Positions 1,263 to 63,346 of a stretch of 64,000 bases of DNA are shown here, piece by piece. The position numbers were made by a program, and so were the translations under genes. Every line of letters begins with the position of its first letter. Positions within the stretch are counted from its first letter, which is position 1. The notes beneath the pieces are model-generated. The model saw nothing but the letters and a program-made list of their open reading frames with translations, had not been told where the DNA came from and ran no database searches. The stretch lies in assembly GCF_963675165.1 (NCBI RefSeq), contig NC_087386.1, positions 6,713,066-6,777,065 on the forward strand, written 5' to 3'. This stretch comes from Halichondria panicea. Taxonomy: Eukaryota > Porifera > Demospongiae > Suberitida > Halichondriidae.

Positions 1263-3192
1263 CTAGGGAGACTCAAGCAAATGAATGTTAACAGAGTCTA
1301 GAGCGTTCACTACCCACTGCTCATATGCTCCATCAGGGTACAGCTGAATCATGAACTCTCGGACAAATGTTGGGAACCTGCCCTCCATTATGCTCAGACG
1401 AAGGTCACGCATCATCGACAACTGCAGGGGGGGGAAAATAATAATTAAATTACATAATTACAGAGATTTTGCAGTGAACATGGCAGCAAAAAGGGCAAGT
1501 TGTGTTCGTCGCTCGTCATTACATCTATTTATTTATTGTACCTAGAGATAATGATAAATACAGTGGATTGCAGTGCACTTGCACAGAAATTGCCATTTGT
1601 CGGACGTGTGTGTGTGTGTGTGTGTGTAGACCCACCCACTCACCATATAGCACACATTATGCAGAGAGACAAGGTTGCAGGCCACCGTCTCCTTCTGTGT
1701 CATGAGGGAGTGAATGTAGGCCCTACTGTGGTTAGTGCACGCCACACAGGGGCAGTTCTTATCAATTGGCTCAAAGTCGGAAGCAAATTCCCTCTTTTTG
1801 AGGTCCACCTGACCCCACGAAACCAACGCCACACCAAAGCGCTGCAAGGACAGCGGAGTGATATATGAAATTACATGATTGCATGTACACTCACACCAGT
1901 TCTGGTTGGGTACACACAGTCGTACATGTCCGCACCTAATGCACTGCACACAACAAGATCCACTGGAAAACTGTGAGGGAAAAAGAGCAAAATTTCTAAA
2001 TTTTGTGCAAGTAAGCTAATGAAATTGTGAGATTTTAACTGCAAGCAAGTACAGTGCATACCCCACTCCCATGATGTATCGTGGCTTGTTCCTAGGCAAC
2101 AACGATGTGCAGAGTGTGACAATCCTCCAGAATGAGTCCTTGGCCTCCCCTCCACTGAGACCCCCCACAGCGTAACCAGGGAGATCCCGTGCAACCATCG
2201 CTATACAGGGGGGGTAGCGAGGAAGAAAGAGTACAAAATCTAACTAGATGCGCTAAAAAAAGTTATACCTTCGACACACTTTCTTCTGAGGTCTTCTTGC
2301 AGACCCCCCTGGATTATTCCAAACAGGTTCTGAGCCTGAGGGCGTGTGTGAGCTCCCATACACCTGTCCAGCCAGCGCACAGATCGCCACATGGCCTCCT
2401 CCACACGTGCTCCAGTGGTTTTTACGTGCACCACGTCATCTAATTGCATGATGATGTCAGCTCCGATGGTGTTCTGTATCTGAATGGAGTGCTCGGGAGT
2501 GAGTAGCATCATACTGTCATCATGGGGGGACTGGAAGCGAACACCTTCCTGTCATGGGGGGGGGGGGTATTGTCATGGGGGGGGTATTGTAGTTGGCTAG
2601 CATTAGTATTGTACTAGTACATGTTACCTCGGTGATCTCAGCTAACTTGAGCAACGAGACCATTTGGAAACCGCCGCTATCCTAAAGAGATGGGAATATA
2701 TAAACGCATGAATAATATAATTATTGTTGAGAACAATTACACAGTCAGTTACAGACACTGACTCACAGTGAGCAGACCTCGGTCCCAACTCATGAACTTG
2801 TGCAGTCCACCAACTTTCTCCATAACCTCACAGCCCTGTAACAGAGCATCGATTATAAACAAATGGTATCTAATTATAGTCATTCATTCCGTGCTATGGA
2901 TAAGTGCAACCAGTACGCGCACACACACAGGACAACTGCTCACAGGCCTGTTCCCCAGATGGTAAGTATTTCCTAGCATGATCTGACAGTCAAGATGGAC
3001 CAACTGTTGAGAAGTGATTCCTTTCAATGTTCCCTGTGTACCTACTGGCATGAATACTGGTGTGTCCACAGTGTGATGGGGTAGAGTCATCGAGGCCACT
3101 CTAGCTTTAGACACTGGGCATTCAGCTAGGATCTTGAATGTGAGCGCACCTTTCATCATGGCTTGAGTACTCTCCTCTGTGCAGGTAGCCAT
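1263..3192 (-). CDS. QTRT1: Queuine tRNA-ribosyltransferase catalytic subunit 1
   Basis: Eight exons: 3192-2944, 2835-2767, 2681-2628, 2548-2269, 2200-2062, 1970-1895, 1841-1644, 1421-1263. All phases agree and give 407 aa, the usual length. The enzyme swaps guanine-34 for queuine in the anticodon of tRNAs with GUN anticodons, working with QTRT2. Family signatures visible: GNTYHLG near the N terminus, [10 protein letters not shown] (base-binding Asp), [20 protein letters not shown], the nucleophile Asp in [14 protein letters not shown], and the zinc site [15 protein letters not shown]. The ATG is first in frame after an upstream stop-rich gap and opens directly onto a short divergent promoter shared with TTC16. 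No defects seen. Confidence 0.93.
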
Positions 3193-3306
3193 CTTATTAC
3201 ACGTGGTTTAGCGCATGCGCAAGGAAATGATCCGCAGAAGTTCTACTGCGCATGCTTGAAACCACATGTATTGTCATAGTGATAGAGGGGGCGTGAACTA
3301 GAAAAC
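3193..3306. promoter_or_regulatory. Bidirectional promoter QTRT1/TTC16 with NRF-1-like palindrome
   Basis: Only 114 bp separate the two divergent start codons. The gap holds GCGCATGCGC at 3211-3220 and a related CTGCGCATGC about 30 bp further on. This matches the NRF-1 consensus YGCGCAYGCGCR. A promoter role is inferred from position and motif. Confidence 0.55.
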
Positions 3307-6300
3307 ATGTCAGCAAGCAGTCTTCACAGCCATGTTTCTGCGGATACTAGCAGCCACAAAGAGTTGTCCTACTCTCACATTATGAGTGAGAAGATATCAC
3401 AGATGTAAGTTACAGTGTACATTAGGCCATAGCATGTCCTGTAGGTGCTACAACACAACACTTTACTCCACCATAGGCTGACCGAGGCTCAGACACTGTG
3501 TGATAATGGAGAATGCAATAAAGCTATTGCTAAACTGAGTCGAGCCATTGTACTTCAACCTTTGAACTCTGAACTATTTGAGAAACGAGCTGAAGTATAT
3601 GTAATCATCCGAAACTATGACTTGGCCATTGCCAACTTCCAAAAAGTTCTATCTCTAAGAATAAAAGACGATAACATATTCGATCGTATTGGACAAGTGT
3701 ACTGGGTGCGTGGGGAGGAACTGTATGCTGAGGGGAGATACAGACAAGCTCTGGAGGTGTATGAGCAGGTGGCAGTGTACAGGCCCGAGGATAGGAACAT
3801 CGTCAAGAGGAAGTGAGGGCACACACAATGTTACTGCGCGAGTTGGTTTTTGCAACTGTTTTCACTTCTGAAATGCAAACCTTATTAGAGAACATGACAG
3901 TGTACACAGTGGGACTACCATTGCCTTTATACACTATTCTACACACTCGAGGTCAAGTAGTCCAGCATTTCTGCTTTTTTATTTACTGTAAAGTGAGGTG
4001 AAAAGGGTTGTAATCTTTTGTCACATCTGTCCATTTTAAAAGTTGGTGTGATAACTATATCCTTTACAGGATTTCTTGTCTGCAGTCTCTTGATCGCTAT
4101 GAGGAGTGTGTGGAGATGATCAGACAAGAGTTGGAGGCTGACCACACTAACCCTGAGCTATACATACTCAGAGCCAAACTAAAGCGCCTCTTTGGAGATG
4201 TGAGTACGCCCCTGTGATTATAGTATTTCTGATCTAAGCATGTCATGCGCCTTAGATTTTTTTAGCTACGTTTTTGTTGAAATTGCCAACTGCCCTTTAA
4301 AATATTCAGTTTTGTATAAAGTATCCTCCTTTATACAGACCTCTGCAACGTACTACGATGTGTGTAGTGCTCTGACCCTTGACCCCTGTCACTCAGTGGC
4401 TCTGGCCATGAAGGTAGAGCTGGAGGAGTTAGCACAGCAGTGCAAGAACCAGGTCAGCACATCCCATCTCTGTTTGCCTTGAAAAATTCGTTCTACAAAA
4501 AATTTTATCCGTACAATTTACGTACGTAGCTTACTAAGGTGACTGGTTGCTCTCTCCTCAGGCTGTTCATCACAGTCTGGTGGGGCGTAAGCTGGATGCT
4601 CTCAAGAAAATATCCACTGCTATAGAGACTGACCCAGCTGTTGCAGAGTACCACATATTCAGGTCTAGTGGGGTGGGTGATTAAGGCCGTATAGCGGGTT
4701 ATTTTCGGATGGTGGACATTTTCGTAGATTTCGTATTGAAGAGAATCATACGAAAACTACCGAAAATTAATGGGTCGTTCGTACGAAAATTGCCCGCTAT
4801 ACGGTATGTTATGTGCTGAGCTACGTGTAATTAATGAGGGTTTGTGCCTCTATTCAGAGGTGCCCTGTTTCGAAGGCTGAAGGATTTTCAAGCTGCAGTC
4901 GATGATTTCCTGACAGCCATGGATAAAGTGTCTCATCAGCAGGACAGTGACGTGTATGTGAATGCCTCTAAACAGTTGGTGCTCACTTATAATGACTTTG
5001 CAATGGAATGCTTTCGACAGCGGCATTTCAACGAAGCCGTACTGCTACTGAACAAGGCTATAAAGGAGGAAAAGAAAGAGAAGGGGCTGTACTTGAACAG
5101 AGGAGGTACAGAATTAAGCCTGCCAACTGCTATTAAACTTAGATTTAACGTCTGCATAATTAGGAAAATGTTCATAACAGTACAATTGATATCCCAGATT
5201 GTTTCTATCGGCTGAACGACCTCCCCTTTTCTCTGGCTGACTACCAACAGGCCCTGGAGTTGGACCCCAGTGACTGGGACGTGAGCTGTCGTATTAGCAT
5301 TGTGTACTGTGAGCTGGGGGTGGAGTGCTACAGCAGGGAACAATACTCCAAGGCTGAGGCCCACTTCACGGCAGCTATACGACACAACCCTAAAGTCAGC
5401 AGATTCTACGTATGTAGGGCAAGGTCAAAGTTCACTCAAAATGTCAGTTAATAATTTTTTGTTTGTGTGGTAGGTACATTATAATTATAATAACGTTATA
5501 ATAACGGTAAAGCTGACTGTGTGTGTGTGTCTGTTCCAGCTGTAACTGCTATCGTAGTTGCAATGCGACGAAAAGTAACAGCTTCTATAGCCACGTTCTC
5601 TTGGATTTTGATCTGTTCTAATGACTTTTTCGGTATATATCTTTCCTTTATTAAGCTGTTAGTTTTTGTAAAAAAAAATATTAACGAGGGATCACCCAGG
5701 TAGTACAAGTACTAGTAAGTCCCTCTCATTCTCGCCAATCCGGAACCCACTGCAGGAAGTGAGACTAACCTTCGACACACTAGGCCCCAGCACTCTGGCC
5801 ACCACGAGATTCTCACCACATGATGTAGGTTAACCACTCAATTGAATAAACAATCGATACAGCAGGGTATAGAACCCGGGACGACTACAGAGAGGTTCAC
5901 TAGGTCAAGTAGCTTACCCACTGGGCTAATAGCCTCGTCGAGAAATAAAGGATTAATTTATGCTTACATAATCATCATTTGCTATTAATTAAAGAGAAAG
6001 AAAAGAAAGTACATTACCTGGATTCGAACCAAGACCTCCCGCTTACTAGTCAAGCACCCTACCATTACACTAGAATGAATAACTGGTAAAGGTCGTCTTT
6101 ATTAACGCATAAAATGAGTCAAATCTACCTGTGAAACAGTATGTCACCTTTAGGTACTGAGATACTTACTACTGACGCAACATTTTTACAAATTTATAAT
6201 TTTGTCTTATTTTTCACAGAATGTATCTGGTACTAAAGAGGATCTGATAGCAGCTTTGACCCTTGACCCCAACAACGAGGAGTGCGTGTCACTGATTGCC

Positions 6301-6895
6301 CGCGCTTTACCCGGCAAAACCAACCACGATCTACTCAACAGCCCGGAGGCAGAAGCATGTAAAAAACAACTAGAAAATGACATACAGAAACAAACTGGCC
6401 ACAAGAAATATCACTCCAATCCGAACGAGTTCAGTTCAACATCTGTGGCAAAACTACTCCGTGAATTAGATTTGAAATTTGAAGTCACTGTTGATTCAAG
6501 CTCAACCATCAAAGATATTATATCTGAAGACTCTGAAATGGTTGAGTCAGAGCCACTGACCACAGTCACCACTGAGGGTACACTGGCCAGTCAAGTGGAG
6601 GAAGAGGACGAAATGGTCCCTAGAAATTGGACTGTATTATGCCACCCCCTCCCAGAGCTGACCTCTGACCCCCAGGGAGTGATGCCCGTCTTAAGAGACT
6701 GTTTGAAAGAGCACTCGTTTCATAAGAAGATCTACTACTCAAAAAAGAATGTATGTGCATGGGTACACTATACAAATACCAGCTTCAAAATAATATATTG
6801 TTTTTTTTGCCGCCATGCAGGCTACGGAGGATGTCAAAAGAGTGTTAAGAATTCCCCCTGAACTGGCTAGACCCATTAAAGTTAAACTTGAATGA
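3307..6895 (+). CDS. TTC16: Tetratricopeptide repeat protein 16
   Basis: Nine exons: 3307-3404, 3477-3812, 4070-4199, 4339-4452, 4562-4662, 4858-5105, 5198-5442, 6220-6750, 6821-6895, coding 625 aa. TPR units fill the first two thirds. The best match to vertebrate TTC16 as I recall it is around exons 6-7: RGALFRRLKDFQAAVDDFL, LVLTYNDFAMECFRQ, EAVLLLNKAIKEE, KGLYLNRG, then AEAHFTAAIRHNP. The C-terminal 180 residues are acidic and not repeat-like, as in the family. TTC16 is poorly characterised and associated with ciliated cells. It is a scaffold protein with no catalytic residues to check. CFAP77 follows 194 bp downstream on the same strand. Confidence 0.85.
4686..4806. repeat. Fold-back element, CGTATAGCGGG family (intron 5 of TTC16)
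   Basis: Short palindromic insertion: it opens with CCGTATAGCGGGTTATTTTC and closes with GAAAATTGCCCGCTATACGG. The same termini recur at 12549, 30800 and 43674, with fragments at 28873, 35519 and 37150. Non-autonomous, no coding. Confidence 0.75.
5866..6075 (-). repeat. Two tRNA-like fragments (SINE-like) in intron 7 of TTC16
   Basis: On the minus strand, around 6075-6015, TAGTGTAATGG resembles an A box and GGTTCGAATCC is a perfect B box with a 5-bp T stem. About 75 bp further along that strand (5943-5866) a second unit has TAGCCCAGTGGG (A box) and CCCGGGTTC (B-box-like). The acceptor stems do not pair well and the first unit lacks U33, so these are more likely tRNA-derived SINE heads or tRNA pseudogenes than working tRNAs. 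Confidence 0.5.
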
Positions 6896-7089: not shown

Positions 7090-8589
7090 ATGAGCAGGAA
7101 GGAAATGGGCGCTCTGGGATCTCAGAGGGAGTCACTATCATCCAATCCCTTACTAATGGCGGTGAGTGTGATATTGAAGTAGCTAGCTGACCAGCTCCAA
7201 CCACACACACACTCCAACTACCCCCTCCACACACACACACCCACACACTCCAACCACACACACACACACTCCAACCACCCCCTCCACACACACACTCCAA
7301 CCACCCCCTCCACACACACACACCAACCACCCCCTCCACACACACACACACACACACACACACAGTCAGAGGTGGGTAAGCCTCGGAGGAGAGGGTTCAC
7401 TCTACCCAATGCAACGTTCACATACGGCATAAGAACTGAAAATAAAGATGGTGGAGCATCAGAAGGTGAGGGTAGGAACATTTCCTAAAGAGCTTATTCA
7501 TAAAAATAATTATGGAAAAGCTATATTAATAGCTAGCTACATACAGCAACGCAATGATTATAGCTAACAGTTGTATCCTCCCTCCTCCCAGCCATGTCCA
7601 ACTGGCATGCCCACCGACCCTCGGCTGGTATCAAGAAGATACCCCAGCGTGACTTCATAGCTCTCAATAAGAGGGCTATCTGTAGTGGTCTCACCACGGC
7701 ACAGGAGCAGACCCAGTACAGGGCCACTCACAATATATGGCGCAGAGATGATACTATGACCTCCGAAAAAAACACTCCAAAGTTCAGTGAAATGACCTTT
7801 GGAATGTCTACCAGGTAAGTGTAAATAGATGACGATATGGCAATAGAGAATTTTGCTCTTGGGGAATATTACTACCTACTCAGTATTGATTTTATAATAC
7901 TAAGCTAGAGTCATAGCCCCCCCCCCCCACACACACACACACACATTATGACCTCCTCCACACACAGACCCTCCACTCCTATATTTGATCTCATGGAGAA
8001 CAAATATCAGGAGGCGTGGCTACAGGAGAGGAGAGAGTACGAACGAAAACAGAGAGAGAAGATGTTACAGAAGAAATTGCAGGACAAGAAAGTGTACGAG
8101 ACCCGGGCGTCCCTCATGAGACACTACTCAGAGCCAGTGGCCTCACCACCACTCTGGAAGATGACGCGATGGGCAGAGGTAGGGAGGGGGAGGTTGAGTA
8201 CAACCCTTCACTTCACTTGAAATGTGGAGAAAACATAAGTTAACCACTAGCTACAGTGTACACAGTGGAACCACATAATAAGGCTCTGCACACTAGTCTA
8301 TATTGTACACTTGAGGGTCAGTAGTCTGCTTTTGCTTTTCAAACTTTATTTCAAGTGAGGTGAGAAGGGTTGTATTCACTGAGGCTGTGTTCACTTACAT
8401 TGCAGCTTTGTAGTTACTTATCAACGCCCCCCCCCCCCCCCCTCAAACACACACACACAGATTGAGCCCCAGTTACAGACATTTCGCTCAGAGAAGGAAC
8501 GATCTGTGGCCTTTCATCAACATTCGTTGGATGCCACCTCGAGGGTGGGTGTGTTTGGACATGGCATTTATCAAGCAGCACAGTCTTGA
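7090..8589 (+). CDS. CFAP77: Cilia- and flagella-associated protein 77
   Basis: Five exons: 7090-7161, 7366-7465, 7592-7814, 7968-8178, 8461-8589, giving 244 aa with all phases closed. It resembles the DUF4483/CFAP77 family: VGKPRRRGFTLPNATFTYGI near residue 25, then PQRDFIALNKRAICSGLTTA followed by QYRATHNIWRRDD. The C-terminal half has a basic, Glu/Arg/Lys-rich helix that could be coiled coil. In other animals CFAP77 is a microtubule inner protein of the axonemal doublet. Three of its four acceptors (exons 2, 4, 5) are formed by the end of a (CA)n tract. Confidence 0.82.
7198..7365. repeat. CA-rich minisatellite forming an intron 3' end
   Basis: Repeats of CCAACCACCCCCTCCACACA and pure CA in intron 1 of CFAP77, ending directly in the exon 2 acceptor CACAG. 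Confidence 0.85.
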
Positions 8590-8865
8590 TAATTTTAACT
8601 CATCCCCATATAATAATAATTATAGCTAGCTTGATTACACCATCATGCTCTTATCTAATGTGTCAATTATACCACTTTTTGTGTTGTATTCTACTCAACT
8701 CAATGATAATTAAGGGGTCAAAATAACATGTGCAATAAACAGTTCGGGGACAACAAAAATAAGTGATTATGTTTTGAAAAGTAAGTAAGCCTTTACAACA
8801 GAAAAATAATTTATTACCAGTGAAGTTTAAGAAAATAATAGCTATTACTATGAAGCTTACAAGTG
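8590..8865. other. Convergent intergenic gap CFAP77 / NEK
   Basis: 276 bp between two gene ends that face each other. AT-rich, with no gene or repeat recognised. Confidence 0.5.
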
Positions 8866-8984
8866 TTAGGTGGTGGTGGTTGCCCCATGCATGCGTTGGG
8901 CCACTGCACAGACTTGGTGGATGTCTGGTCGATCATCTGGGTTAGGGTTAATACACACACCCACCAGGTCTCGGAGCTGTGTGT

Positions 8985-9045
<61 letters not shown>

Positions 9046-9964
9046 ACAAGCCTAATCTTAACAGTACAAAATGCTTTACGTTTGTTTCTAACCATGCAGA
9101 TATTAACGACACAACAACAGACCCGAGGGCTGTACCCACATCTTGGGAGTAGATGTCTCCAGGGAGAGGAGGGTAGTCGCACTTCTCAATCTTCTTACAC
9201 AGAGAGTAGAGATTCATCTTGTCCCCATAAAAGGGTGATTGGAGGGCAGCCATTTCATAGAGGAGGCAACCTAGCGACCATAGGTCAGACTTGAAGTTGT
9301 AGCCATTCTCATGGATTCTCTCTGGAGACATGTAGTACGGAGTGCCAACTGTGTGTGTGTGGGGGGGGGGGGGGAGTACTAGAGTACAGTCAAATAAAGC
9401 ATGAAATGCTAGCTGTGGGGGGAGGGGGGTAAAGAAATTCTATAGATATCCCCCAGTGGTGTGTACCGAGGGAGTGAGCTGCTGTAGTCTTGGAGCTGAA
9501 GAATCTGCCCAGACCCAGGTCCCCCAACTTGACCACAGCAGAGGCTGTCACAAACACATTGGCTGGTTTGATATCTGTATAATAATTATAGAAACGATAA
9601 TTATGATATGAACTTCTTCGTATAGTGTTGTATGTACCTTTAGTTAACATAATGTCGGTCGCTAAAACAAACTATTGGCTACAGAATGGAGGAGTTCTGT
9701 GCTGCTCCCAACAATCCCTGACCGTACTAAGCTGGTACCCTGGCTCACCTCTGTGCATGACCCTCCTGGAGTGCATGTGGTCGAGGGCACTGCACAGTTG
9801 AACAAAGTACCGCCATATTGTACGCTCGGGGATCAACTGTTTCTTTTTCTTGAAATGCTGAAGAGGGAGGGAGTGATAGTGTGTGTGTGTGTGTGTGTGG
9901 GGGGGGGCACACCTTTATCATTCTGGAGAGGTCCCCAGCATCTGCTAGCTCCAATACAATGTTT

Positions 9965-9999
<35 letters not shown>

Positions 10000-10883
10000 G
10001 GGGGGTGTGGACGTGCGTGTGTGTGGACGTGCGTGTGTGTGTACAACACAGTACGTGTCCCTCTCCACTAAGCCAGTACAGTGGCATGTATAATCTTACC
10101 TCATTATTCTCCACAAAGGAGGCCAGGTACATGATCACATTGGGGTGGTTCAGTTGCTGAGGGGAGGGGCACTCAATCACTAGCTGGTACATACACTATA
10201 GAATCATTATAACTGCCACAACATTTCTGTACTATGTAAGGGAAGCTATTCTTCAGATACAAATTTCCTCGAATACCTATTAAATGTACAGGTCTGGTAA
10301 TGGATAGTAATACTCCTACAGCCGCAAACATTCTGCCAGAGTAGCTAGTATGCCACAGTGGCTAGTATGCTATGAAGAGGTCTCACCTTCAAGAGGTCAA
10401 TCTCTTTGATGCAATCCTGCCGTGCCTTGGCATCAACCATCTCAAATATCTGTATCTTCTTGAGAGCGACCACTTGTCCATCCACCGTATTGCGAGCACG
10501 ATACACTATACTGAACTGACCCTGACCAATCTTCTTTTCAACCTGCAGCAGGGGAAATTGTATTGACTAGTTTCTCAGTACACTCCGGCTATGCATGTAT
10601 ATACGTGGGTTAAACTGGTAGGCTACAACCTATAGGGGTCTGACAGAGCTAATAACATTTGTAAATCGTGGGCGTATGTATGGAGAGGTCTATACACTGC
10701 TCTCTGTTGTCAGAGCACAGAGGGCTTGTAGTGTATCCACTGCACACGTGCCTGGAAGTGTTTGAGTGAGGTATAATACTCGGGTGTAGTGTAGGGGATA
10801 AGAGAGGGGGTGTAGGCTTGTGCAGGGGGGCTGGAGGGATCACTCGAGGGGCCACTCCCTAGTGAGACTGGAGGCTCGGCCAT
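8866..10883 (-). CDS. NEK6/7: NIMA-related serine/threonine kinase, NEK6/NEK7 type
   Basis: Eight exons: 10883-10752, 10542-10387, 10156-10100, 9966-9913, 9857-9749, 9574-9467, 9348-9140, 8976-8866, giving 311 aa, the length of NEK6. It is a kinase domain plus a short N-terminal tail, as in NEK6/7, without the long C tail of other NEKs. Motifs: IGQGQFS glycine loop, VALKK lysine, [10 protein letters not shown] catalytic loop, [10 protein letters not shown] (DLG form), activation segment [20 protein letters not shown] with the conserved serine. In mitosis NEK6/7 act below NEK9 on spindle assembly. The pre-duplication single gene is expected here. Intron 1 starts with GC rather than GT (CAG|GCACGT), the only in-phase choice. 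Confidence 0.92.
8985..9042. repeat. (GT)n microsatellite
   Basis: Nearly pure GT tract of about 50 bp in the last NEK intron, ending at the acceptor of the final exon when read on the minus strand. Confidence 0.9.
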
Positions 10884-11173
10884 GACACTATCTTTCTCTG
10901 TAGACTCTTTGTAGCTTGCTTTGATGCTTGTCCCGTGCTGTTGCTTGTTGTTGCTTTGTTTAATTAATCAAACGAATAATAATTTTATTAATTTCAATAT
11001 TACCTTAGCCCTGCAATAGCTGCTTTTCTCTTATTTAGATCTAGCTGCTGTGACGTGTGAACGTCACTATCAATGATCTTGCGGTGTACATGCGGCCCGT
11101 CAAACGCGCGCAGTTAGCTTCTGCAGATTGTTTGTCTATTAAACCACTATTATCAATGCAAACAGTCCCTTAG
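10884..11173. other. Intergenic region upstream of NEK6/7
   Basis: 290 bp with no open frame. It presumably holds the NEK6/7 promoter. A CG-rich patch (GCGGCCCGTCAAACGCGCGC with one base change) lies near 11090-11112; no repeat recognised. Confidence 0.4.
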
Positions 11174-13934: not shown

Positions 13935-14039
13935 AGAACCTTCTAATGTTGGGGGAATCTCTCTGTGTTACCGTTAGTTAAGAGTTACTGTTAGCTACTA
14001 TCTACTCTTGATACAAGCAGGAGTGCTGCACTCGTACTC

Positions 14040-25783: not shown

Positions 25784-25864
<81 letters not shown>

Positions 25865-35893: not shown

Positions 35894-35941
<48 letters not shown>

Positions 35942-41645: not shown

Positions 41646-41685
<40 letters not shown>

Positions 41686-41746
41686 TGTGGGTGTGGTGTG
41701 GGTGTGTGTGGGTGGGTGTGTGTGTGTGTGGTGTGTGTGTGTGTGT

Positions 41747-41790
<44 letters not shown>

Positions 41791-41858
41791 TGTGTGGTGT
41801 GTGTGTGTGTGGGTGGGTGTGTGTGTGTGGTGTGTGTGTGTGGTGTGTGTGTGTGGGT

Positions 41859-41902
<44 letters not shown>

Positions 41903-46666: not shown

Positions 46667-46978
46667 CTACATGTATATAGTATCTGGTATTCATATTGTT
46701 GAACTGTTTATTCATGCGCATATACTGATGATCTGTGTAAAACACCTTGGAATTCAGCTCTGCATGGTCACTGACAGAAGGCTGTGATGTGGTAATTAAT
46801 GTAACATGCATGCATAACTAATTAACTACGCCTCGAGGCATAATTAAAAGGTTATAGCCCTGAAGTCAAAGATAATTATGGCCAGCAACATTTCAAAGGT
46901 ATATTATAGATTGTGCATGAAGCGGCTACATCATATAGTTTATCCAAGTATAGATGCATGCAGTGACACAACATTTGC

Positions 46979-49660: not shown

Positions 49661-49814
49661 CTACAGCTCCGGAGCCCCGGTTTATAACCCACACGCTACA
49701 TGGGTGAACTGCAACAAGTCAATAACGTAGGAGGAAGGGGATCTTTTAGCCTCGATCCTAGGCCGCACTGAAGATGAGGCCAGGAGCACATTACTTTGAC
49801 AAGTGCATAAAGCT

Positions 49815-52319: not shown

Positions 52320-52368
<49 letters not shown>

Positions 52369-52394
52369 AGGGTGTGTGTGTGTGTGTTGTGTGG

Positions 52395-52433
<39 letters not shown>

Positions 52434-52454
52434 GTGTGTGTGTGTGTTGTGTGG

Positions 52455-52494
<40 letters not shown>

Positions 52495-52500
52495 GTGTGG

Positions 52501-52531
<31 letters not shown>

Positions 52532-53849
52532 TGTGGAGGGGGAGGGGGTTTGTTTTTGTACTAATAGTGAAAGCATGATTGATAACACTCAATTGATGGT
52601 GAAAGTTGCTTGTTTTGACACACACCGTCGCTAACTGTTCCTTGAAAGCAGCATTTGTTATCAATACACACAGACACTCACTCTGCAAGCTATTCTCATC
52701 TCTTTGATCTCGTCCGGAGATAGCTGTTGAATGGACAATGACTTCTTAGCCTCCCTCTCACTAGTGGGCACGCCTGCACACACACAGAAGCACACATACT
52801 AACATAGGCACGAGAATGTATGAACACCTCTTACCAGTGTCTGAATAGTCTGGTTTGCCGATATGCTCTGGGATTACTCGAGGAGGACTCTGCAGAATAC
52901 ACGAGGAATGGGAATACATTTCAGTTTGAACATACTAGAGTTGGCTCTGTAACTAGAGTTCTGATGGTCCAAATTAAACGATTTTTTTATTTTCTGAAAG
53001 CTTAGAAGGAGCCCGTTCAGATGGTATGCTCAAATCCCATTTTTGGAAAGGACAATAATTTCCCATTTTCGGATAAAGACCGTGGGCTATATATAGTTCA
53101 TGGTATTTTGTCAAAAACAGGCCGAAAATAGACTTTTGATTTTAACACATCATATGAAAGGCCTCTCTCTAAACTTTCAGAAAATCATCAATTTAACGTT
53201 TTTGGGCCAACGAAACTAAAGTTATGGCCGTTCAAAGATGCTCTATTTAAGCATACAACTCACGAGTGGATAAGGACGCAGTGGCCCAGAGAAGGTGAAG
53301 CCAGGCCAGGGATTGTACGTGCTGGGTTTGGATGGGGTTTTCTTCTTGTGTACAGCTTTGTGTTCTTTCCAGTAGTTTTTGAAGCACTCCTGTGAGGCAG
53401 ATTACAGTAATGGGCTAGCTATGTGAATCATTATTGTAATTACATTAACATGTAGAAGTACGCAATGAATACAAGACCACTAACGAGGCAGTACCCACTA
53501 CGAGGAAGTACCCTACGAGGAAGTACCCTACGAGGAAGTACCCTACGAGGAAGCTAGAGCACAATATATCAGAGACAACGTCTTATATAAACATTATGTA
53601 CCAAACACGACACCACTTCAAGCTACAAGCAATGTTCAATCTAGTGCATTAGCATGCACTAATATAGTTGATAAAAATACACAGATTTAGAAGTAAGTGT
53701 CTCATGGTCTGATTGTGTGAGGTCCTCACTTGGTTACAGAAGTATGACCCCTCGAGTCCTTGCTTGACACAGGTGGGGCACTGAAGGGTGGCCTTGTTGG
53801 TGCAGCCCAGGGTCGTGCACAGCTGCACTGGACCATCCAGAGCTGCCAT
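50589..53849 (-). CDS. METAP1: Methionine aminopeptidase 1
   Basis: Twelve exons: 53849-53730, 53389-53264, 52889-52835, 52773-52682, 52319-52168, 51976-51906, 51833-51702, 51438-51333, 51271-51234, 51051-50986, 50935-50886, 50702-50589, giving 373 aa. N-terminal zinc-finger region ([31 protein letters not shown]) as in type 1 eukaryotic enzymes. Catalytic part: [39 protein letters not shown] (two metal-binding Asp), YCGHGI (His), TIEPMI and [10 protein letters not shown] (two Glu). It removes the initiator Met from nascent chains at the ribosome. The start is shared through a 189-bp divergent promoter with RPL34. Confidence 0.95.
52321..52550. repeat. (GT)n microsatellite forming a METAP1 acceptor
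   Basis: About 220 bp of GT with GGAGGGTGTG interruptions. On the minus strand it reads (CA)n and supplies the CACAG acceptor of METAP1 exon 5. Confidence 0.92.
52935..53255. repeat. Fold-back repeat, CCATAACTT family
   Basis: In METAP1 intron 2, inverted relative to most copies: GGCTCTGTAACTAGAGTTCT, GAAAGCTTAGAAGGAGCCCG, core ATATAGTTCATGGTATTTTG, GAAAGGCCTCTCTCTAAACT, and the end CTAAAGTTATGGCCGTTCAA then AGATGCTC. The most complete copy of this subtype. Confidence 0.9.
53500..53556. repeat. 15-bp tandem repeat
   Basis: About four copies of GAGGAAGTACCCTAC in METAP1 intron 1. Confidence 0.9.
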
Positions 53850-54038
53850 TGTTTATACGATATGAGCTGCTGAAGCTAGCTTGTTGAACTACATGTGACT
53901 ATATAGTGCGCATGCGCGGTGGGGAGAGTTCTTTCTCTATGTAGTTGTGTGTACAGTCAAGGTAAGTCCATGTGGTTGTGTATCTATTCCAATCCTGCAC
54001 TGACTATCAATGTAAGTATATATGATATTGTTCTATAG
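53850..54038. promoter_or_regulatory. Bidirectional promoter METAP1/RPL34 with NRF-1-like site
   Basis: 189 bp between start codons. TGCGCATGCGCG at 53907-53918 fits the NRF-1 consensus exactly. A non-coding first exon of RPL34 probably ends at 53960 (CAAG|GTAAGT) and splices to TTCTATAG just before the ATG. Confidence 0.6.
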
Positions 54039-54858
54039 ATGGTGAACCGATTGACATACCGTAGGAGGCTGTCCTATAACACCAAGTCCAACAAAACTAG
54101 GGTGTAAGTGAAGTCATGTTATTCTATATTAAAAGCAGACATTTACTGTACCAGTCAAGTCTATTTCTAATACACACACAACTTGTACTAAAGTACCTAG
54201 TTACTAAGTAACTGCCCCCCCCCTGCAGGTCAAAGACTCCGGGGGGTCGGCTGGTGTACCTGTACGTCAAGAAGAAGGGCACACCCCCCAAGTGTGGGGA
54301 CTGCAAGGGCAAGCTGAGTGGGGTGAGTGGGCGTCATCACTGAGCACACTTCGTAGCAAACTCAATAAGACACTTCAATGATATGATAGCAGCTAATTGA
54401 ATAGTAACCTACTTTGAAATTTAATTAATAGCCTAAGCTTTGATATAGCTGTAATATTTGTACAGCAAAGTCAGTCAGTAAGACACTTTATTGGTAGTTG
54501 TGTAATGACTGAAGTTTAAGTAGTACCCTAATGTATGGTAAGTCATCCACCCCTCCCCCTCCTCCCAGCTTCCTGCAGTGAGGCCTATTAAGTTGAAGAA
54601 CCTCTCCCGACCCAAGAAGACCGTGTCCAGGGCGTACGGAGGCTCCAGGTGTCATCAATGCCTCAGGCAGAGGTGCAGCTAGTAATTAAACGTTCATTAT
54701 TGTGATCTCCCTGTTTCCATAGCTACCTGTGCATGCTCGTAACCTTACACATGCTTTAACCTTGCTCTGTTTCTCCCTCTGATAGGATCATCAGAGCTTT
54801 CCTTATTGAGGAGCAGAAGATTGTGGTCAGAGCACTCAAGGCACAAGCTACCAAATGA
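54039..54858 (+). CDS. RPL34: 60S ribosomal protein L34 (eL34)
   Basis: Four coding exons: 54039-54103, 54229-54322, 54569-54672, 54786-54858, giving 111 aa. Sequence is typical eL34: [36 protein letters not shown], the two CxxC pairs in [12 protein letters not shown] and [19 protein letters not shown], and a basic C terminus ending KAQATK. Structural protein of the large ribosomal subunit. No start or splice ambiguity. Confidence 0.97.
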
Positions 54859-55086: not shown

Positions 55087-57456
55087 TCAGAGTTCATCTT
55101 TCTTTGATGCTCTGATGTGCTCTATCAGTCCAACGTATTGTTCTTGTGTGGCTTGACTCAACTGTGTGTGTGTGTGTGGGGGGGGGGGGCAAAGGTCAAT
55201 CAATACCAGTCAATTATATATTAACGCACTTCACTGCCTTTTTTCATGGCTGAGAGCACCTCCTCCAACAGAGAAGTGCTGAGTCGGCAATGTATCTTCC
55301 ATAGGAGTCGGCACAAGTGGAGCAACACTGTCTCACTAGCCTAGAGGGGGGAGGGGATAATGCAATCAACACTGAACAGTTCTAAGACATTCCCTCCCAC
55401 ACACAACACATACGTACAGACGAGATCACATTATTAGTCATAGGGGGACGGTTAATTAATGACATGGATTTAAATTGTACACAAAATGAAATTATGACTG
55501 TAGTCTAGTTAAACTCCCTCTCCTCCTCACACATACGTACTGTAGTCTAGTTAAACTCCCTCTCCTCCTCACACATTACTGTAGTCTAGTTAAACTCCCT
55601 CTCCTCCTCACACATAGTCTAGTTAAACTCCCTCTCCTCCTCACACATTACTGTAGTCTAGTTAAACTCCCTCTCCTCCTCACACATACATACGTACTAA
55701 GACAATGTCTAGAGCCAGTTACCTGACAACAAGGCATCCAAAACTGCCTCAACATGACCTGGAGAGTGGCCACCTTCAGCTCTTGCTGGCAGGTCACATG
55801 ATGCACGAGTATGTGGAGGAACACGTCCGGCATCTGTGTTCCCTCAGTGCTGCTAGTGAAGGCTCTAGCAATCGTAGGGAGCAGGAAAATAAATGATTTC
55901 AGTTCTTTTTTCTCGAGTAAGTGGACAGCGTACATACAAGTGATGTACATCGCCGAGGTGTGCTTTGTGAGATACTTGATGAAGTTCTGTGAGGGTGTGT
56001 GCGGTGGGTGTTCCTCGCCCAGCTGACGATAGAGCACTCGTAAACTATTCTCAGCCATCAGTGAGAGGAGATCCGGAATGAAGCGAATCAGCAGATCTGT
56101 GTCCTAGAGGAGGGAGGGGGGCAAGTATGGGAACTATATTATAATTATATGTTCACTTACAAATTTATCTTCGTAGTATTCTTTGCTGTCTATTAGTCTA
56201 AGTGACTTGAGCCCCAACAAAAGCAGTCGCACCAAACACTCTAAATCATTGCTCTCCTGCATGTGGAGAATGGACACCATCTTTAACTATGAGTACAGAG
56301 GACTGCAACTGCTCACTCACTCTTGGTAACTGGGACTGCTCGAATAGTTGCAATATATTCTGTAGTATGCTCTTGCAGAGTGTGTGGAGTGTGTATGGGT
56401 CTCTCAGGAGCATCGACACATCTCTGTAGGGGGGGTAAAAAAGTTCTAAGCAACGAGACTTGAACTTCTAGCAATAATTGATCCACTTGTAGCTCTATCA
56501 AAGACCTTCTAAATGCACATTTTAGCTGTGAATTTGGTTACTTAAGTTATGGGCAAAAATGCTTCTACTACCAAGGATTACAGCACAGCACTCCCTCACC
56601 CCAGTATGTCATCTCCCTGCTCTTGTTCCTCTATGAAGCTGTACAACTCTCTAGTCTTCTTAGCGTCCACTCCTCCCACACGCACACACGCATCCAGACA
56701 CCACGCAAACTTCCGACATCGATCCAGCTCACACAACTTGCTCTCTTTCTCGTGCAAGGTCATCAGAAGGTCCGCACGCAATGTACAATAATGACTAATC
56801 TGCGTACGAAGAAACAGTGTTCGTAGAAACTGCAGCAGTGTTGTGTAGAGAGTGGGGGAATTCCCTAACATCGATACAAGCTCTTGAATGACAGCATTTT
56901 GTCGTCGTGACCGCGGTAAAATTGACAGAAAAGATACCGAATTTTTAGATTTATCTTCAACACCAAATAACAGATTTTCTTTGTCTGAGATGTACTGATC
57001 TAACAGCGGACTAACGGCCTCCCCAAACAGGCCCTGATTGGTTGACCATATCTGCTGCTTCACGCCGAGCGGACAGGAATTATATAACTCTACATTTTCT
57101 GAGAGTGGCCGAAGATATTTTTCATCGATAATGGGCAACTTTTGCATGATTTGCAAACACACTGAACGAAGTTGTGCATCTCCTCCAATGTAGCGGAAAC
57201 ATCGATCGAGTAATTTCGTTAGTGCTCTATCCTCCAGATTGTCAACTTTAGACAGTAGCTTTTCCTGCATTTTCTGAAACAGACTAGTGTGTATCTGAGC
57301 ACGTGTGATGCCATGTAGGTCCAGTATAGGGAGAGCAGGGTTCATGGAGGATATACCCACTTTGTTCTGTGTCTGTACTTTTGTGATGGAGTCAAATGCA
57401 TCCTCGTTGTTCTTGAAGATACCAGTGATGTACTCTGCACCCGTATTGTCAGACAT
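55087..57456 (-). CDS. NELFB: Negative elongation factor B (COBRA1)
   Basis: Six exons: 57456-56600, 56423-56321, 56256-56161, 56103-55723, 55340-55230, 55161-55087, giving 540 aa (human about 580). Matches as I recall the family: NPALPILDLHGITRAQIH, VKQQIWSTNQGLFGEAVSPL, LYTTLLQFLRTLFLRTQISH followed by YCTLRADLLM, KFAWCLDACVR, DVSMLLRDPYTLHTL, and a shorter C terminus (QATQEQYVGLIEHIRASK). NELF with DSIF holds RNA polymerase II in promoter-proximal pausing. I start at the ATG at 57454-57456; the open frame continues upstream only through the poly(A) tail of an inserted LINE. The exon 3 acceptor (CATGCAG) was chosen by similarity over an alternative 27 bp upstream. Confidence 0.9.
55499..55690. 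repeat. Minisatellite in NELFB intron 4
   Basis: Five units of about 30-43 bp with TACTGTAGTCTAGTTAAACT and CCCTCTCCTCCTCACACAT. It starts about 30 bp beyond the exon 4 donor. Confidence 0.92.
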
Positions 57457-57543
57457 GATGCAGCAGCTACATAGACTAAATGTAGACTCGAGACTAAATG
57501 AGCAAAGATATATCAGATTCAGAATAAAAATCCTACTTTCTTT

Positions 57544-57546
<3 letters not shown>

Positions 57547-57581
<35 letters not shown>

Positions 57582-58968
57582 CTTTATAATGTTTGATGCA
57601 GAGGAAGCATACAGGATATGACAAGGTAGCTAAATGAAGCTAATAATGAAGTCAGTCCATAACCAAAAAGTAAAGGTGCAGGTGCAGTTCTACTTAAGTG
57701 AAAAAAAGAAAAAAGGAAAAAAAAAAATGTTAACTTATTGCTATAATTTTGACAGGGATAATTTAAAAGCAGATGGGCTAGGGCTACTGATAACATTTAG
57801 GGGAAGGGAATTCCAAATGGGGATTACGCTTACAAAAAAGGAATGTCTATGGGCTAGGGTTTTAACATATGGTTTAAAAATAATTTGATTATGAGGGTGA
57901 CGGGGGGAAGGGCGAGGATGGAGGGTGAAAACATTGGGAGATATTATAGATAAATTGTTAAGTATATTAAAGCAGACTTTCAGTTTTTGGTTTTTCCTTC
58001 GAGATGACAGAGGTTTCCAGTTTAAGGAGGCAAGCAGGTCAGGGTATTCTGCCCTCCACTGCTTCGTTACAATTTTCCCTGCAAATTTTTGGACGCTTTC
58101 CAGTTTTTTTATATCTGTGTGGTGATGAGGGTCCCAGACTGCACCGCAATAGTCTAACTTAGGCAGAACAGCCGTGCGGTAGATCTGGTTCCTGATCTGA
58201 GGTGGTGATTTATGGAACTTGCGATGGATGAAGCCAAGATGTTGTTTGGCCTTCTTGCAGGTGTTGTGTATGTGACATGCCCATTTTAGATCATTATTGA
58301 TAGTAACACCAAGGTACTTTACAGTATCACATGGGGAGATCCGATGGTTGTTTATATCTATATTCATTGGGATAGTGCGTGTAGAGCGAGTTATTGTAAG
58401 CAGTTTGGTCTTGGAGTGGTTTGCTGTGAGGCCGTGAGATTGCATCCAGGAGTTTATTTCATTGACATCTCCCTGTAGGTCCTGAGTTTCAATTGTCGAG
58501 TTTATGGGCTTGTAGAGAAGGATATCGTCTGCGTATAGAATGAGTTTGGCATTGGTGGACAGGTTGATGTTAGCAATTGAGTTCATGAAAATGTTGAATA
58601 ATAGCGGTCCTAAGATTGACCCTTGTGGGACACCTGAGGTCACTGCAACAGGGTCTGACATAGTTCCCTCCAGGACTACCCTTTGCTCTCTGTTGGTAAG
58701 ATAGTCTTTTGTCCAATGCAGTAGGTTGCCACAAATGCCTACGGCTTGGAGAGAGGATATGATCTGTGGGTGGGGTACTGAGTCAAATGCTTTCTTGACG
58801 TCAAAGAACACAGTTGCCACTTGGTGATCATTTTCTAGAAGTTTGTGCCAGTCGTTAGTGACAGATAGGAGGGCTTCTTGAGTTGAAGATTTTGGTCTGA
58901 AGCCAAACTGGCAGTTTGACAGGAGCTTGTTTGAGTATAAGAACTTTGAGATTCTCTTGTTTTCTATT
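57547..58968 (-). mobile_element. 5'-truncated non-LTR retrotransposon (LINE, CR1/L2/jockey-like)
   Basis: Minus-strand reverse transcriptase from about 58966 to a stop at 57741, uninterrupted for roughly 400 codons. Motifs: NCQFGFRPKSSTQEALL (domain 2 region), VFFDVKKAFDSVPH, SGVPQGSILGPLLFNIFMN, LILYADDILLY (catalytic YADD), SKTKLLTI, VKYLGVTINNDLKW. Endonuclease and N-terminal parts are missing: typical 5' truncation. A 155-bp 3' UTR with A-rich patches is followed by a poly(A) tail of nearly 40 nt (57547-57585). The open frame and tail suggest a young insertion. Target-site duplication not resolved. Confidence 0.9.
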
Positions 58969-59135
58969 TAAAGAGCATCCCATTGTTCAGGGAAATTCCC
59001 TAATATGCTAATCATGTTTTGGAATAGGTACAAGAAGGGGATCCCCTCACATTGTACGACCATTCATGATCCACGGCCACACGATCGATCACTTTCTGCC
59101 GCAGCGTGTGTTGAGATCCAGCTAGCTAGCCGGCC
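58969..59135. promoter_or_regulatory. BAG6 side of the NELFB/BAG6 promoter gap
   Basis: 167 bp between the truncated LINE end and the BAG6 ATG. Without the LINE, NELFB and BAG6 start codons would be about 260 bp apart, so this is likely half of a former bidirectional promoter. Confidence 0.45.
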
Positions 59136-62100
59136 ATGAAGGTGACTGTGAAGACCATAGATGCCCAGAGCATTCAGTTGGACGTGGAGCCAGATGTGAG
59201 TGCGCTAGTGTACATATTATATAAGTATAAAAGGGGTGGTATTTGTACTGACCTCCCTCCACTGCCATGTAGCTGACTGTGAATGAGCTCAAGATTGCTA
59301 TTTTGGAGAAATTGGTAAGAATTGTCCCTAATGCTGCATTACTATGCATACTCTGTGATGATTTGTGCAGGACGCTGTGGGAAAGCAAATACGACTGATT
59401 TGGCGAGGGAAGGTACTCAATGACGACAAGAAGTTGAGCGAATATGGTACGTATATATGTTGCTGACTCAGCAATTATAACCTCTGTGTATCGTGTAGCT
59501 CATTATTGTCACTATATAACTTTACTCTGATTAATGCCCACCATTACAGCAAGTGACGAACTCATGCTCCACCTGGTGTACAGACCACCCCCCAGGGAGG
59601 ATGGTGAGCACACACACACACTGTGGGGGGTATAGGTTATGCTTCATTAGGATTTAGCATTAAATAGAGCATCTTTGAACGACCATCACTTTAGTTCTGT
59701 AGGTCCAATAACGATAGAGGCCTTTCAGATGATGTGTTAAAATCAAAATTCTATTTATACTATAGCCCATTGTCTTTAGGAAAATGGAAAATAATAGCCC
59801 ATGACAAATTTGAGATTCCATTTGAAAGAGCTCCTTCTAAGCTTTCATCGTTGAATTGGATCATCAGAACTCTAGTTACAGAGCCAACTCTAGTATTTCA
59901 ACTCAGCGTTAAATGCTTTAAATGGCCCTAAATTGCAGTTCTATTGGTGTGGGGTGATCTAGGTTACCGTATGCTGGTTGACCCTACATGCCACGAGTAG
60001 CTTGCTTTCATTACTGTGGTTACTCACATGTAATTAAGTGGTTGATTCTAGTTGTAACATCGGTTGTCTTTCATTGTATCACTTTCATTCTTTATGTTAG
60101 CTGATTACCCCTCAGGCACTAATGAGGGGGCGGAGCCTGATGGGGCCACACCCCCTCCCCCTCCTCGGGTAATTGACCACACCCACGAAGTCATGTTCGT
60201 ACAAGGTGACTCTGCAGACATTCCAGCCAGTATCACAGAAATCACTCAGGTACGTGCGTGGGCGTACATCACGTGTTTTCATAGTAAAACTTCAAATATT
60301 TGTTAGTCACAGTCTGGATAATTACAATTTTGATTGTGTTCTGTAGCTCGCTGATAGCTGTATTATCAGGTGGTGTGCTTTAATCTTTAATTATCTGTGT
60401 ACATATTTTGCAACCATGAGTAGCGTGAGGATATGTGTTTGTCTCCTCCCCCCAGGGGCTGGTGGACAGAGTGCTGGGTTCACTCAATGCTCAGGGTGCA
60501 CGAGGCACCGTCACTGCCACTGCATCGTCTATTGTAAGCCACACCCCCTTTTGTGTGTAGTCCCTCATGCTTCCCTCATACAGGATTCAACCGGACGTAG
60601 GGAGACTGCACAAGTGTCCGCTTCCACTAGGGAGGCTAAACCAACACTTCCTATCGCTGATCCCACACCCCCCACACCATCACAGCCGCCCCCACAACCA
60701 CCCCCTGCAGCGGAGGCCACACAGACAGCTGAGGCCACACCCCCAGCAGAGGCCACACAGACAGCTGAGGCCACACCCCCAGCAGACCCCCCACCCACTG
60801 AAGAGGAGGACAAGGAAAAAGAGGCACGGGAACAGCGGGAGATGATACAAGAATATAAAACACAGAAGAATATTCGAAGTCATGTGAAAGATGCTTATCG
60901 TACTCTTCAGCATGCTGATAGGGTGTTGCTAAGATATAAGGTTGGTCCAGTGTAACCACCCACTCATCTGTTATCACTCCCCTCCCCCTCCACCCACTCC
61001 ACACCCTTTCGTCTGTTAGAAAGCGTCGGCTCGTGCAGATGGTCAGACTGTGGATCCGGACGAGGATATTGAGACAATTCATGACGTCAATCGTGTGCTT
61101 GCTTACAACAACGGAACAACAAGGTGTGTGTGTGGGTGTGTGGGTGGATGTGTGTGTGTGTGTGTGGGGTGTGTTGTACACTGTACATGTAGTTATCTTT
61201 TAGCAGCCATAACTTTGGTCCAATGTCGTGCACTTTCTGAAATCTTTGAAATAGACCTTTCAAATGATACTGCCCATGGTCCAAGGCCGAATTATTATGA
61301 CCCCCGACAACATTTTGGATTTAAAGACATCGTTTGAAATGTGTCTTTCTAAGCTTTCAGAAAATCAGAAAATCATAAATTGGATCAAGTTATGGCGACT
61401 GAAAGAGTCCCTAAACCAACAATATTAATAATTATAATAACCTCCCTCTGCTCATGGCATGCAGTGCGAGTATCTACGTGACACTGTTGAACTATCAGGA
61501 GGACCTGTTCGCACGAGCTCGCCCACTCACCCGTCACATGACTGACACCATCCAACGCAGCCAACCACACCAAGTCAGTCCAACAATATAATGAGGTCAT
61601 AATCATGTGTGTACCCCCCGCCCCCGCATACTTTACATGACATGCACCGTCAGTCATGTAGTACTTGTAGGGAGTTTGTATTTATAGTGTCAGATTAAGA
61701 TAGTAGTTTTAAGGAACTGTTTTGTAATTATGTGCGTGACCCCGCCCACCACACACACCACACAGGAGCTGGAGGCTTGGAAAGAGGCCCAGATTGCTCA
61801 GACTGTACGAGAGTTCAACTATTACATGGGCCATGCTGCTGTCTCTCTGTCACGCCTTCATGTCAACATGTTTGCCCCTCCCCCACGAGTCATCGTCTCC
61901 ACACCCCCCAAGACCACAGAGATGAGGGGGATCATGTCACAGATGAGGTCCATGCATGCTGCACCCCGTCCCCCCTCCGGTAAGTGAGCGTGGTTTGGTG
62001 GGCATCTCATAATAATTTAGCAAAGTAAAAAAAAAGAATTATTTTGCATTGTTAATTTTTGTTTCATTCACTTGTTCTTTATTTCCTCCAGGCTATGTGA

Positions 62101-63346
62101 TTGAGATTACGCATAACGATGAGAGTGGGCAGGAGCGGACCACTCGAGCACGACTAGACACTGGGGGTCGTCCAGGGGGTCTCTTTGGTGGCCTCGGTGG
62201 TGGTGGTGGTGGTGGTATGGGACTTGGCGGAATGGGGATGGGGCTTGGTGGAATGGGAATGGGAATGGGAATGGGAGGTGGTCTGGCCGAGCTGCTACGG
62301 CAACGAGTGGAGCGTGACGAACAAGAGGAGGAAGAAAAGAAAGAAACAGATACTGGCACGGAGGGAGCGAAACCAATGGAGACAGAACCAAGCATGCCCA
62401 GTACGTCTAAAAATGGCAGCAAACGAGAATCAGAGGAGGAGCATATGGATACTAGCACACCCCCTGCCAAGAAGCCGTCCATTGACCCCGATGAATCCCA
62501 GCCAAAGCCAACAGCTGCTACTAGTGGGTCGACCTCTGACCCCTCTGCTGGTAAGTCACATGCACAATAATAATAATAGTTCAGTATAGCCTCGTTCCTA
62601 TAATAAAGCGGATAGGCAAACAATATTGAAGTCCATAAGCATACAGCTCTGTTATCCTTGTGCCCCTACCGTCTGCAGGAGAGGGGGACAAGTGATGACT
62701 CAGCACGTACGGCCGCACAGAAAGCTATAGAACTATTGACAATTGAATTAACTCTTAAATTGATTTCCTATTGTAATGCTACATGTATTGTGTGCAATAA
62801 CCATTTCTAATTAATGTGTGGTTGAGTTGTGATGTGATGTGCTATTGTAAGGAAAAGTTGAACACTTCACAGCTTCTGGAGGGGGAGCTGATAAATCTGA
62901 ACCTGCCAAGTCCGAGGGTGGCGATGATAAAGAGGGCGTGGCCACAGAGGATGAAGAGGGCGTGGCCACGGAGGGAGAGGAACGAGAGCTAACGCAGATA
63001 GAGAAGGACATATCAGAATATCTGGCACGACTGGTTGCTCATATTGTGGCTGGGACTCCAATGCTGCCGCCAAGCATGAGGGGGGAGGCAGGTCAGTGGG
63101 TGTGGTCAACTGAGGGGGGTGGTTTTATCTCCTTTTTATCTGCTTTAATTAGGTGAGGCCTCTGGAGGTGATAAAAAAGAAGAGAATGATGAGAAAGAGC
63201 TGACGTTTGCGCAGAGATTTGCCGGACCACCAGGTACAAAGGTTAAAATTCGGCAGCCTCCCCAGCGTCCAATGTTCCCGGGTATGGCTCCTATGGAAGG
63301 ACCTTCCATCACTATTGACAACCCAGGGGACGGCGCTGAGCCAGAG
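59136..63346 (+). CDS. BAG6: BAG6/Scythe-like ubiquitin-like chaperone factor (5' part, continues beyond window)
   Basis: Thirteen exons seen: 59136-59195, 59273-59314, 59371-59446, 59550-59603, 60101-60249, 60456-60533, 60584-60940, 61020-61123, 61465-61573, 61766-61979, 62092-62550, 62852-63091, 63153-63346 (712 codons, open). N-terminal ubiquitin-like domain (KVTVKTIDAQSIQLDVEPDL, QIRLIWRG, VLNDDKKLSEY). Then Pro/Ala-rich repeats (EATQTAEATPPA), a segment resembling the human region before TPPR (HAAVSLSRLHVNMFAPPPR) and a Gly/Met-rich run. BAG6 shields hydrophobic chains and feeds tail-anchored proteins to GET/TRC40 or to the proteasome. The C-terminal BAG-like domain is outside the window. 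After exon 11 an alternative acceptor (62678) leads to an early stop at 62693-62695. Confidence 0.82.
59655..59890. repeat. Fold-back repeat, CCATAACTT family
   Basis: BAG6 intron 4: TTAAATAGAGCATCTTTGAA, GTAGGTCCAATAACGATAGA, GAGCTCCTTCTAAGCTTTCA, AGAACTCTAGTTACAGAGCC. Confidence 0.85.
61200..61412. repeat. Fold-back repeat, CCATAACTT family (CCATGG-core, shortened)
   Basis: BAG6 intron 8: AGCAGCCATAACTTTGGTCC, CTGCCCATGGTCCAAGGCCG, CTTTCTAAGCTTTCAGAAAA, ATCAAGTTATGGCGACTGAA. Confidence 0.85.

Follow-up and report, generated by a model that had tools for sequence, protein, structure and literature searches.

Linkage of genes from the human MHC-paralogous regions on one chromosome of the demosponge Halichondria panicea

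A proto-MHC, a forerunner of the major histocompatibility complex (MHC), has reportedly been described in placozoans by Suurvali et al. (2014, J Immunol), and the same question is said to have been raised for amphioxus. Here we carry the proto-MHC question to a chromosome-scale sponge genome, that of Halichondria panicea. Our subject is a stretch of 64,000 nucleotides, the window (G000:C10:6713066-6777065), in which QTRT1, TTC16, CFAP77, a NEK6/NEK7 kinase, a fibrillar collagen, PSMB7, ALG14, NELFB and BAG6 lie within 62 kb, and the chromosome, C10, that carries it. Going by its title, the placozoan case is alike in being an MHC-related region of a non-bilaterian animal; ours concerns a sponge, and the linkage is that of a whole chromosome.

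The vertebrate literature is divided over the origin of the four MHC regions. One reconstruction, in the passages we cite, gives a single pre-1R chromosome 9 as the source of all four human MHC regions (PMC6193309). Another, again in the passages cited, calls the hypothesized proto-MHC chromosome an artefact and splits it among seven proto-vertebrate chromosomes, Pvc5, 11, 13, 14, 15, 17 and 18 (PMC8302630). A 0R primordial immune complex with rxr, notch, pbx, brd, psmb5,6,7-like and c3-like genes has also been proposed (PMC10751288, passages cited). On a longer time scale, Schultz et al. (2023, PMC10232365) describe, in the passages cited, chromosome-scale linkages that demosponges, cnidarians and bilaterians have kept, many of them one-to-one and independent of gene order. 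These BCnS ancestral linkage groups resemble what we find in being chromosome-scale linkage without regard to order, and the main text of that paper contains no occurrence of MHC. Because sponge macrosynteny already predicts an effect of this kind, the surprise in our result is moderate. A literature search over titles and the openings of abstracts, with subscription papers mostly outside it, found no sponge proto-MHC or MHC paralogon, which is weak evidence of novelty.

MHC-region genes in the window and along the chromosome

Throughout, the four MHC-paralogous regions are those on human chromosomes 1, 6, 9 and 19 (9q33-34, 6p21, 1p13-21, 1q24-25 and 19p13). Eleven genes of the window have a named human orthologue, and eight of them fall inside the regions: QTRT1 (19p13.2), ALG14 (1p21.3), BAG6 (6p21.33), TTC16 (9q34.11), CFAP77 (9q34.13), PSMB7 (9q33.3), NELFB (9q34.3) and NEK6 (9q33.3; its relative NEK7 is at 1q31.3). 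The 9q33-34 region alone accounts for five of the 11. Left out of this count are the collagen, for want of a clade assignment, and genes lacking a clear human orthologue: three methyltransferases, a peptidase, an epimerase, a long interspersed element (LINE) and a repetitive gene at the left end. The binomial probability of eight in 11 is 2.6e-6, 2.8e-5, 2.4e-4 or 1.2e-3 when the background is set at 11, 15, 20 or 25%.

The genome comes to 131.5 Mb in 39 contigs. C10 has 6,998,024 bases (7.0 Mb), or 5.3% of them, and the window ends about 221 kb short of one of its termini. The animal is non-bilaterian, as the earlier note had proposed from the letters alone: for an intronless VPS33B on C2, the top named relative among the 120 listed is that of the demosponge Geodia barretti (56% identity), followed by the demosponge Dysidea avara (43%) and then molluscs (40%), with the glass sponge Oopsacas minuta ranked lower (34%).

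To look beyond the window we used probes, Pfam families with known human locations, and every family probe made enters the account; predicted genes and controls often came out of the same searches. Nine markers predicted for C10 could be located, and six of them are there. For the BET/BRD2-4 family, the best match in the genome (4.0e-26) is at C10:6078643, the sole other match being a weaker one on C7 (2.1e-5). SLC44 and PTPA have all four of their matches found on C10, and RPL7A, STXBP1-3 and SKIC2 are placed there by profile matches whose translations we read. Predicted genes of the DZF and Notch families are not among the nine because their probes gave nothing usable: DZF (ILF2/ILF3/ZFR) yielded no more than two matches, one on C5 and one on C7, both below threshold and excluded from all counts, and the NOD profile, our only probe for NOTCH, matched nowhere in the genome.

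Controls were genes whose human copies lie outside the regions, named by reading their translations. Only one of the 17 (18 loci) is on C10. They are VPS33B (C2), SCFD1 (C15), MTREX (C4), NHP2 (C9), RPS12 (C2), SNU13 (C10), RPL30 (C15, and a further copy on C9) and ten proteasome genes: PSMB2 (C12), PSMB5 (C9), PSMB6 (C3), PSMB3 (C14), PSMA7 (C9), PSMA6 (C15), PSMA1 (C11), PSMA4 (C7), PSMA3 (C15) and PSMA2 (C11). Six of nine against the share of C10 in the genome gives a binomial P of 1.7e-6. When PSMA5, an in-region gene that was not chosen beforehand, is added to the markers, six of ten against one of 17 control genes gives a Fisher P of 0.0042, and against one of 18 control loci a P of 0.0033. 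Random 6 kb samples, meant as an unbiased control (one each from C6, C8, C12 and C13, two from C10), contained too few identifiable genes to be of use.

The positions on C10 are 0.79, 0.84, 1.29, 2.96, 3.16, 6.08 and 6.66-6.79 Mb. An excess of MHC-region genes is present on one sponge chromosome, both in the window and among the probes, and it takes the form of chromosome-scale linkage with shuffled order. With markers found all the way from 0.79 to 6.79 Mb, the shared property is the chromosome's and not that of the 62 kb window. The earlier note had read the window as a retained part of the pre-duplication linkage group; the linkage that C10 shares with the human MHC paralogon holds up (six of nine probes against one of 17 controls), and the idea of a specially kept 62 kb block does not.

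Conserved linkage as the probable explanation, and its rivals

We consider it very likely that C10 is a case of ordinary conserved macrosynteny, involving an ancestral linkage group of animals from which much of the MHC paralogon was later drawn. C10 would then descend in large part from one such group. After the genome had been duplicated in vertebrates and further fusions had followed, the same group would have supplied the 9q33-34 core of the human paralogon, together with portions of 6p21, 1p13-21, 1q24-25 and 19p13. The linkage would reflect common descent by a passive mechanism, persisting because moves of genes between chromosomes are presumably rare, whereas genes change places freely within one, and no selection for an immune cluster would be needed. 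The data suggest that part of this gene neighbourhood dates back to the split between sponges and humans.

Several observations weigh against this reading. DROSHA, METAP1 and RPL34, all in the window, have human copies outside the four regions (5p13.3, 4q23 and 4q25). Three predicted markers are elsewhere, VPS45 on C14, GTF2H4 on C5 (a weak match) and SMARCA2/4 on C4, and PSMA5 (human 1p13.3) is on C13. There is a short STXBP-like fragment on C4 (a weak Sec1 match, 5.4e-4), and the control SNU13 (human 22q13) is on C10. In the 100 kb on either side of the window, eight of the 15 named genes have human copies elsewhere, and keeping only names confirmed by our tools leaves four in-region genes of 15, which is not significant (P 0.07-0.54). 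Moreover, the probes were chosen by us for their human location, the list of predictions was written down only after the results, and this sponge genome is the only one mapped.

With VPS45, GTF2H4, SMARCA2/4 and PSMA5 all off C10, the human regions resemble mosaics, in line with the argument in the cited passages of PMC8302630. The most probable rival refines conserved macrosynteny more than it opposes it. At least two ancestral groups would have fused on C10, the human MHC regions would be mixed too, and the sharing between them would in part be a product of fusion. We regard this as a real possibility while leaning the other way. The division among seven proto-vertebrate chromosomes fits it, as do the misses scattered over C4, C5, C13 and C14 and the presence in the window of METAP1 and RPL34, both on human 4q. 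The markers, on the other hand, are not confined to one part of C10, and the single pre-1R chromosome favours one source (PMC6193309, passages cited). The latter resembles the sponge case in placing one ancestral chromosome behind the four regions; it is a reconstruction of the pre-duplication vertebrate, and here four of the ten in-region probe genes are on other sponge chromosomes. With six of ten on C10 and four elsewhere, the sponge result sits between the two accounts as cited (PMC6193309 and PMC8302630), and it bears on the dispute between one ancestral chromosome and several.

A second rival is chance helped by selective naming: the human regions are gene-rich, most gene families are multi-copy in human, and many random windows would then look alike. 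Perhaps 11% of human genes lie in the four regions, and a larger share if any paralogue counts, and the out-of-region genes of the window (three of 11) and of the flanks, together with the non-significant count of tool-confirmed flank names, are what this explanation would lead one to expect. The count over all flank names, those without tool confirmation included, is seven of 15 in the regions, with P 5.6e-4 at a background of 11% and 0.057 at 25%. Against it, the window remains improbable even at the 25% background, and probes and controls differ in how often they are on C10, so that we think chance a very improbable account. Less credible still is a tight proto-MHC block held together by selection for the shared stress, ubiquitin and proteasome function at which the title of the placozoan paper reportedly hints: BAG6, DAXX, PSMB7 and NELFB do lie within about 120 kb, but megabases of C10 separate them from other markers of the group, eleven identified proteasome genes, PSMB5 and PSMB6 among them, are on other chromosomes, and the window also contains a collagen, ALG14, RPL34, TTC16, CFAP77 and a LINE.

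Proteasome and collagen genes as proposed stand-ins

The earlier note let PSMB7 stand for PSMB8/9 at 6p21.3. We rejected this candidate. PSMB5 is on C9, PSMB6 on C3 and PSMB7 in the window on C10, so that the trio is on three chromosomes, PSMB5 and PSMB6 being what we take those two genes to be from reading their sequences. The argument fails because PSMB8/9 are paralogues of PSMB5/6, which here are off C10. PSMB1 and PSMB4 were not identified among the proteasome family matches in the genome. PSMB7 (proteasome beta-2; 43313..45310, minus strand) itself matches Pr_beta_C (2.1e-6) and PSMB7 in the PDB (2.7e-41).

The question splits in two, an old and functionally mixed linkage group being one matter and the placement of PSMB5/6, here elsewhere, the other. 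The primordial immune complex (PMC10751288, passages cited) resembles C10 in that the best BET/BRD match and PSMB7 are both on this chromosome, so that the framework gene BRD shares it with the window; it differs in that here PSMB5 and PSMB6 are on other chromosomes and notch was not found by the NOD probe. The unlinked psmb5/6/7 trio may mean either that the trio was assembled later or that its linkage was lost in the sponge. One possible scenario, which we put forward tentatively, is that the framework of the MHC paralogon (BRD, BAG6, DAXX, SKIC2, SLC44, PSMB7, XPR1, TMCO1 and the 9q34 genes) already formed a single chromosome before the sponge split, without PSMB5 and PSMB6, and that the trio from which the immunoproteasome derives was joined there only after it.

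Elsewhere among the proteasome genes, by eye, a region of C9 (G000:C9:1081963-1149146, pieces L002-L007) contains tandem PSMA7-like exons. Several matches to the first exon, nearly equal in strength, occur within 67 kb, and Kelch-like open reading frames (ORFs) are interspersed. One 20S subunit may have expanded in tandem here.

The fibrillar collagen (32118..42819, plus strand) is identified by a COLFI match (9.4e-18) and Gly-X-Y exons. It had been taken as a representative of the COL5/COL11 group, a claim that its C-propeptide does not settle. Compared with five human sequences, 45 residues score 136 against COL1A1, 132 against COL24A1, 131 against COL11A2, 122 against COL5A1 and 121 against COL27A1, and we leave the gene without a clade assignment because these short-exon residues do not separate the clades. 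The COLFI probe also finds two other loci on C10, at about 5.20 and 5.22 Mb, and a single C9 locus, with weaker matches on C2, C5, C9, C11, C13 and C14.

Other features of the window and its flanks

Genes were identified by Pfam profiles, PDB sequence matches and translations of ORFs and exons read by eye. The gene list of the earlier note is borne out by profile or PDB matches, and for TTC16 and RPL34 by reading the translations. From the left, QTRT1, the catalytic subunit of tRNA-guanine transglycosylase (1266..3207, minus strand), matches the TGT profile (1.6e-18) and QTRT1 in the PDB (3.8e-60). What we take to be TTC16 (3445..6890, plus strand) shows only TPR in profile searches, and its name comes from comparing its ORFs with the human protein. 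CFAP77 (7384..8590, plus strand) is seen as ORFs with a PDB match to CFAP77 (1.0e-49). The NEK6/NEK7 kinase (8951..10967, minus strand) matches NEK7 in the PDB at 2.1e-134, with NEK1 and NEK2 much lower. DROSHA (25355..31373, plus strand; PDB DROSHA 7.1e-19, RNase III domain 1.9e-8) is an addition to the list.

To the right of PSMB7, ALG14 (49800..50477, plus strand) has a profile match of 5.5e-64 and homologues, and among the best 120 of 2251 of these there is no named sponge. METAP1 (50969..53852, minus strand) matches Peptidase_M24 (3e-7) and METAP1 in the PDB (1.2e-46). RPL34 (54212..54855, plus strand) is presumed from the translation of three exons, compared with the human protein, and NELFB (55224..57639, minus strand) matches the COBRA1 profile (6.4e-66). 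BAG6 (59130..64000, plus strand) starts near 59,130 with ubiquitin-like exons, by eye, and has its profile match (PF12057, 1.7e-7, 31.5 bits against a cut-off of 25) at 61,688-61,984. It continues beyond the window into the neighbouring piece L019; this extension is read by eye, the pieces of L019 giving no convincing Pfam or PDB match. The final BAG6 exon visible in the window is closely followed by a short tandem repeat (63397-63652) whose unit is about 40 bases long. Between NELFB and BAG6 is a LINE reverse transcriptase ORF (57744-58967, by Pfam), and a second ORF of LINE type, by eye, is at L027:4845-6236.

The window also contains three methyltransferase-like genes. The first (11174-11960) is recognized by eye only; CIAPIN1 was considered for it and dropped, as an upstream exon reads, by eye, as a methyltransferase, and a Pfam search with 11379-11807 gave no match. 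The second (13111-13860) and third (46967-47701) are recognized by Pfam. The third has 14 matches in the protein database at E-values up to 1e-10, itself included, the next best at 58-60% identity, with no named sponge among them. An M16-like peptidase is recognized by eye only (Pfam has no match for the piece tried), an epimerase-like gene has a profile match of 2.5e-5, and the repetitive gene at the left end is unnamed.

The flanks, 100 kb on either side (pieces L009-L028), were read from ORFs kept only when above a simple coding score. The 15 genes that received a human name are XPR1, NUCB, DAXX, WDR47, STX6/10, CDK1, NUDT21, FBXO45, TMCO1, NCS1, DYNC1H1, REV1, RAPGEF1, IFRD and GCAT. The seven in the regions are XPR1 (1q25.3), DAXX (6p21.32), WDR47 (1p13.3), STX6/10 (1q25.3/19p13), TMCO1 (1q24.1), NCS1 (9q34.11) and RAPGEF1 (9q34.13). 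The four confirmed by tools, DAXX (PF20920, 1.8e-22), XPR1, NCS1 and TMCO1 (below the Pfam cut-off in one profile search), lie at most 60 kb from the window. The other three names are our assumptions: the presumed WDR47 has generic WD-repeat matches only, the presumed STX6/10 has syntaxin-6 (0.093) and syntaxin-8 (0.098) as best PDB matches, and the presumed RAPGEF1 is a RasGEF whose best PDB match is another guanine nucleotide-releasing protein. A joined PDB query of STX6, TMCO1, RAPGEF1 and WDR47 returned only WD-repeat proteins among the 60 matches listed and was not used. Outside the regions, profiles support NUDT21 and place REV1 among the Y-family polymerases and CDK1 among the protein kinases; NUCB, FBXO45, DYNC1H1, IFRD and GCAT are what we take the remaining genes to be. 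The count omits, as ambiguous or without a name, a SCYL-like and a TTC24-like gene, a Kir channel, a T-box gene, two JmjC genes, a Tudor gene, a PDZ gene, a glutaredoxin-like gene, two large repeated ORFs, death-domain and ankyrin pieces, a cystine-knot gene, a gene at the end of L019 and other unnamed ORFs.

Two minus-strand ORFs of about 4.1 kb, L010:4001-8137 and L011:2483-6622, closely resemble each other in the 220 residues shown from their starts; they begin with what looks like a signal sequence and have many potential N-glycosylation sites. By eye, two similar JmjC-like genes ending in RDEL (L009:5951-9006 and L016:1238-2410) flank the DAXX region. Among the controls, the two RPL30 loci (G000:C15:3891716-3892690 and G000:C9:2074781-2075360, pieces L064-L067) encode the same protein in the pieces read, with two exons each.

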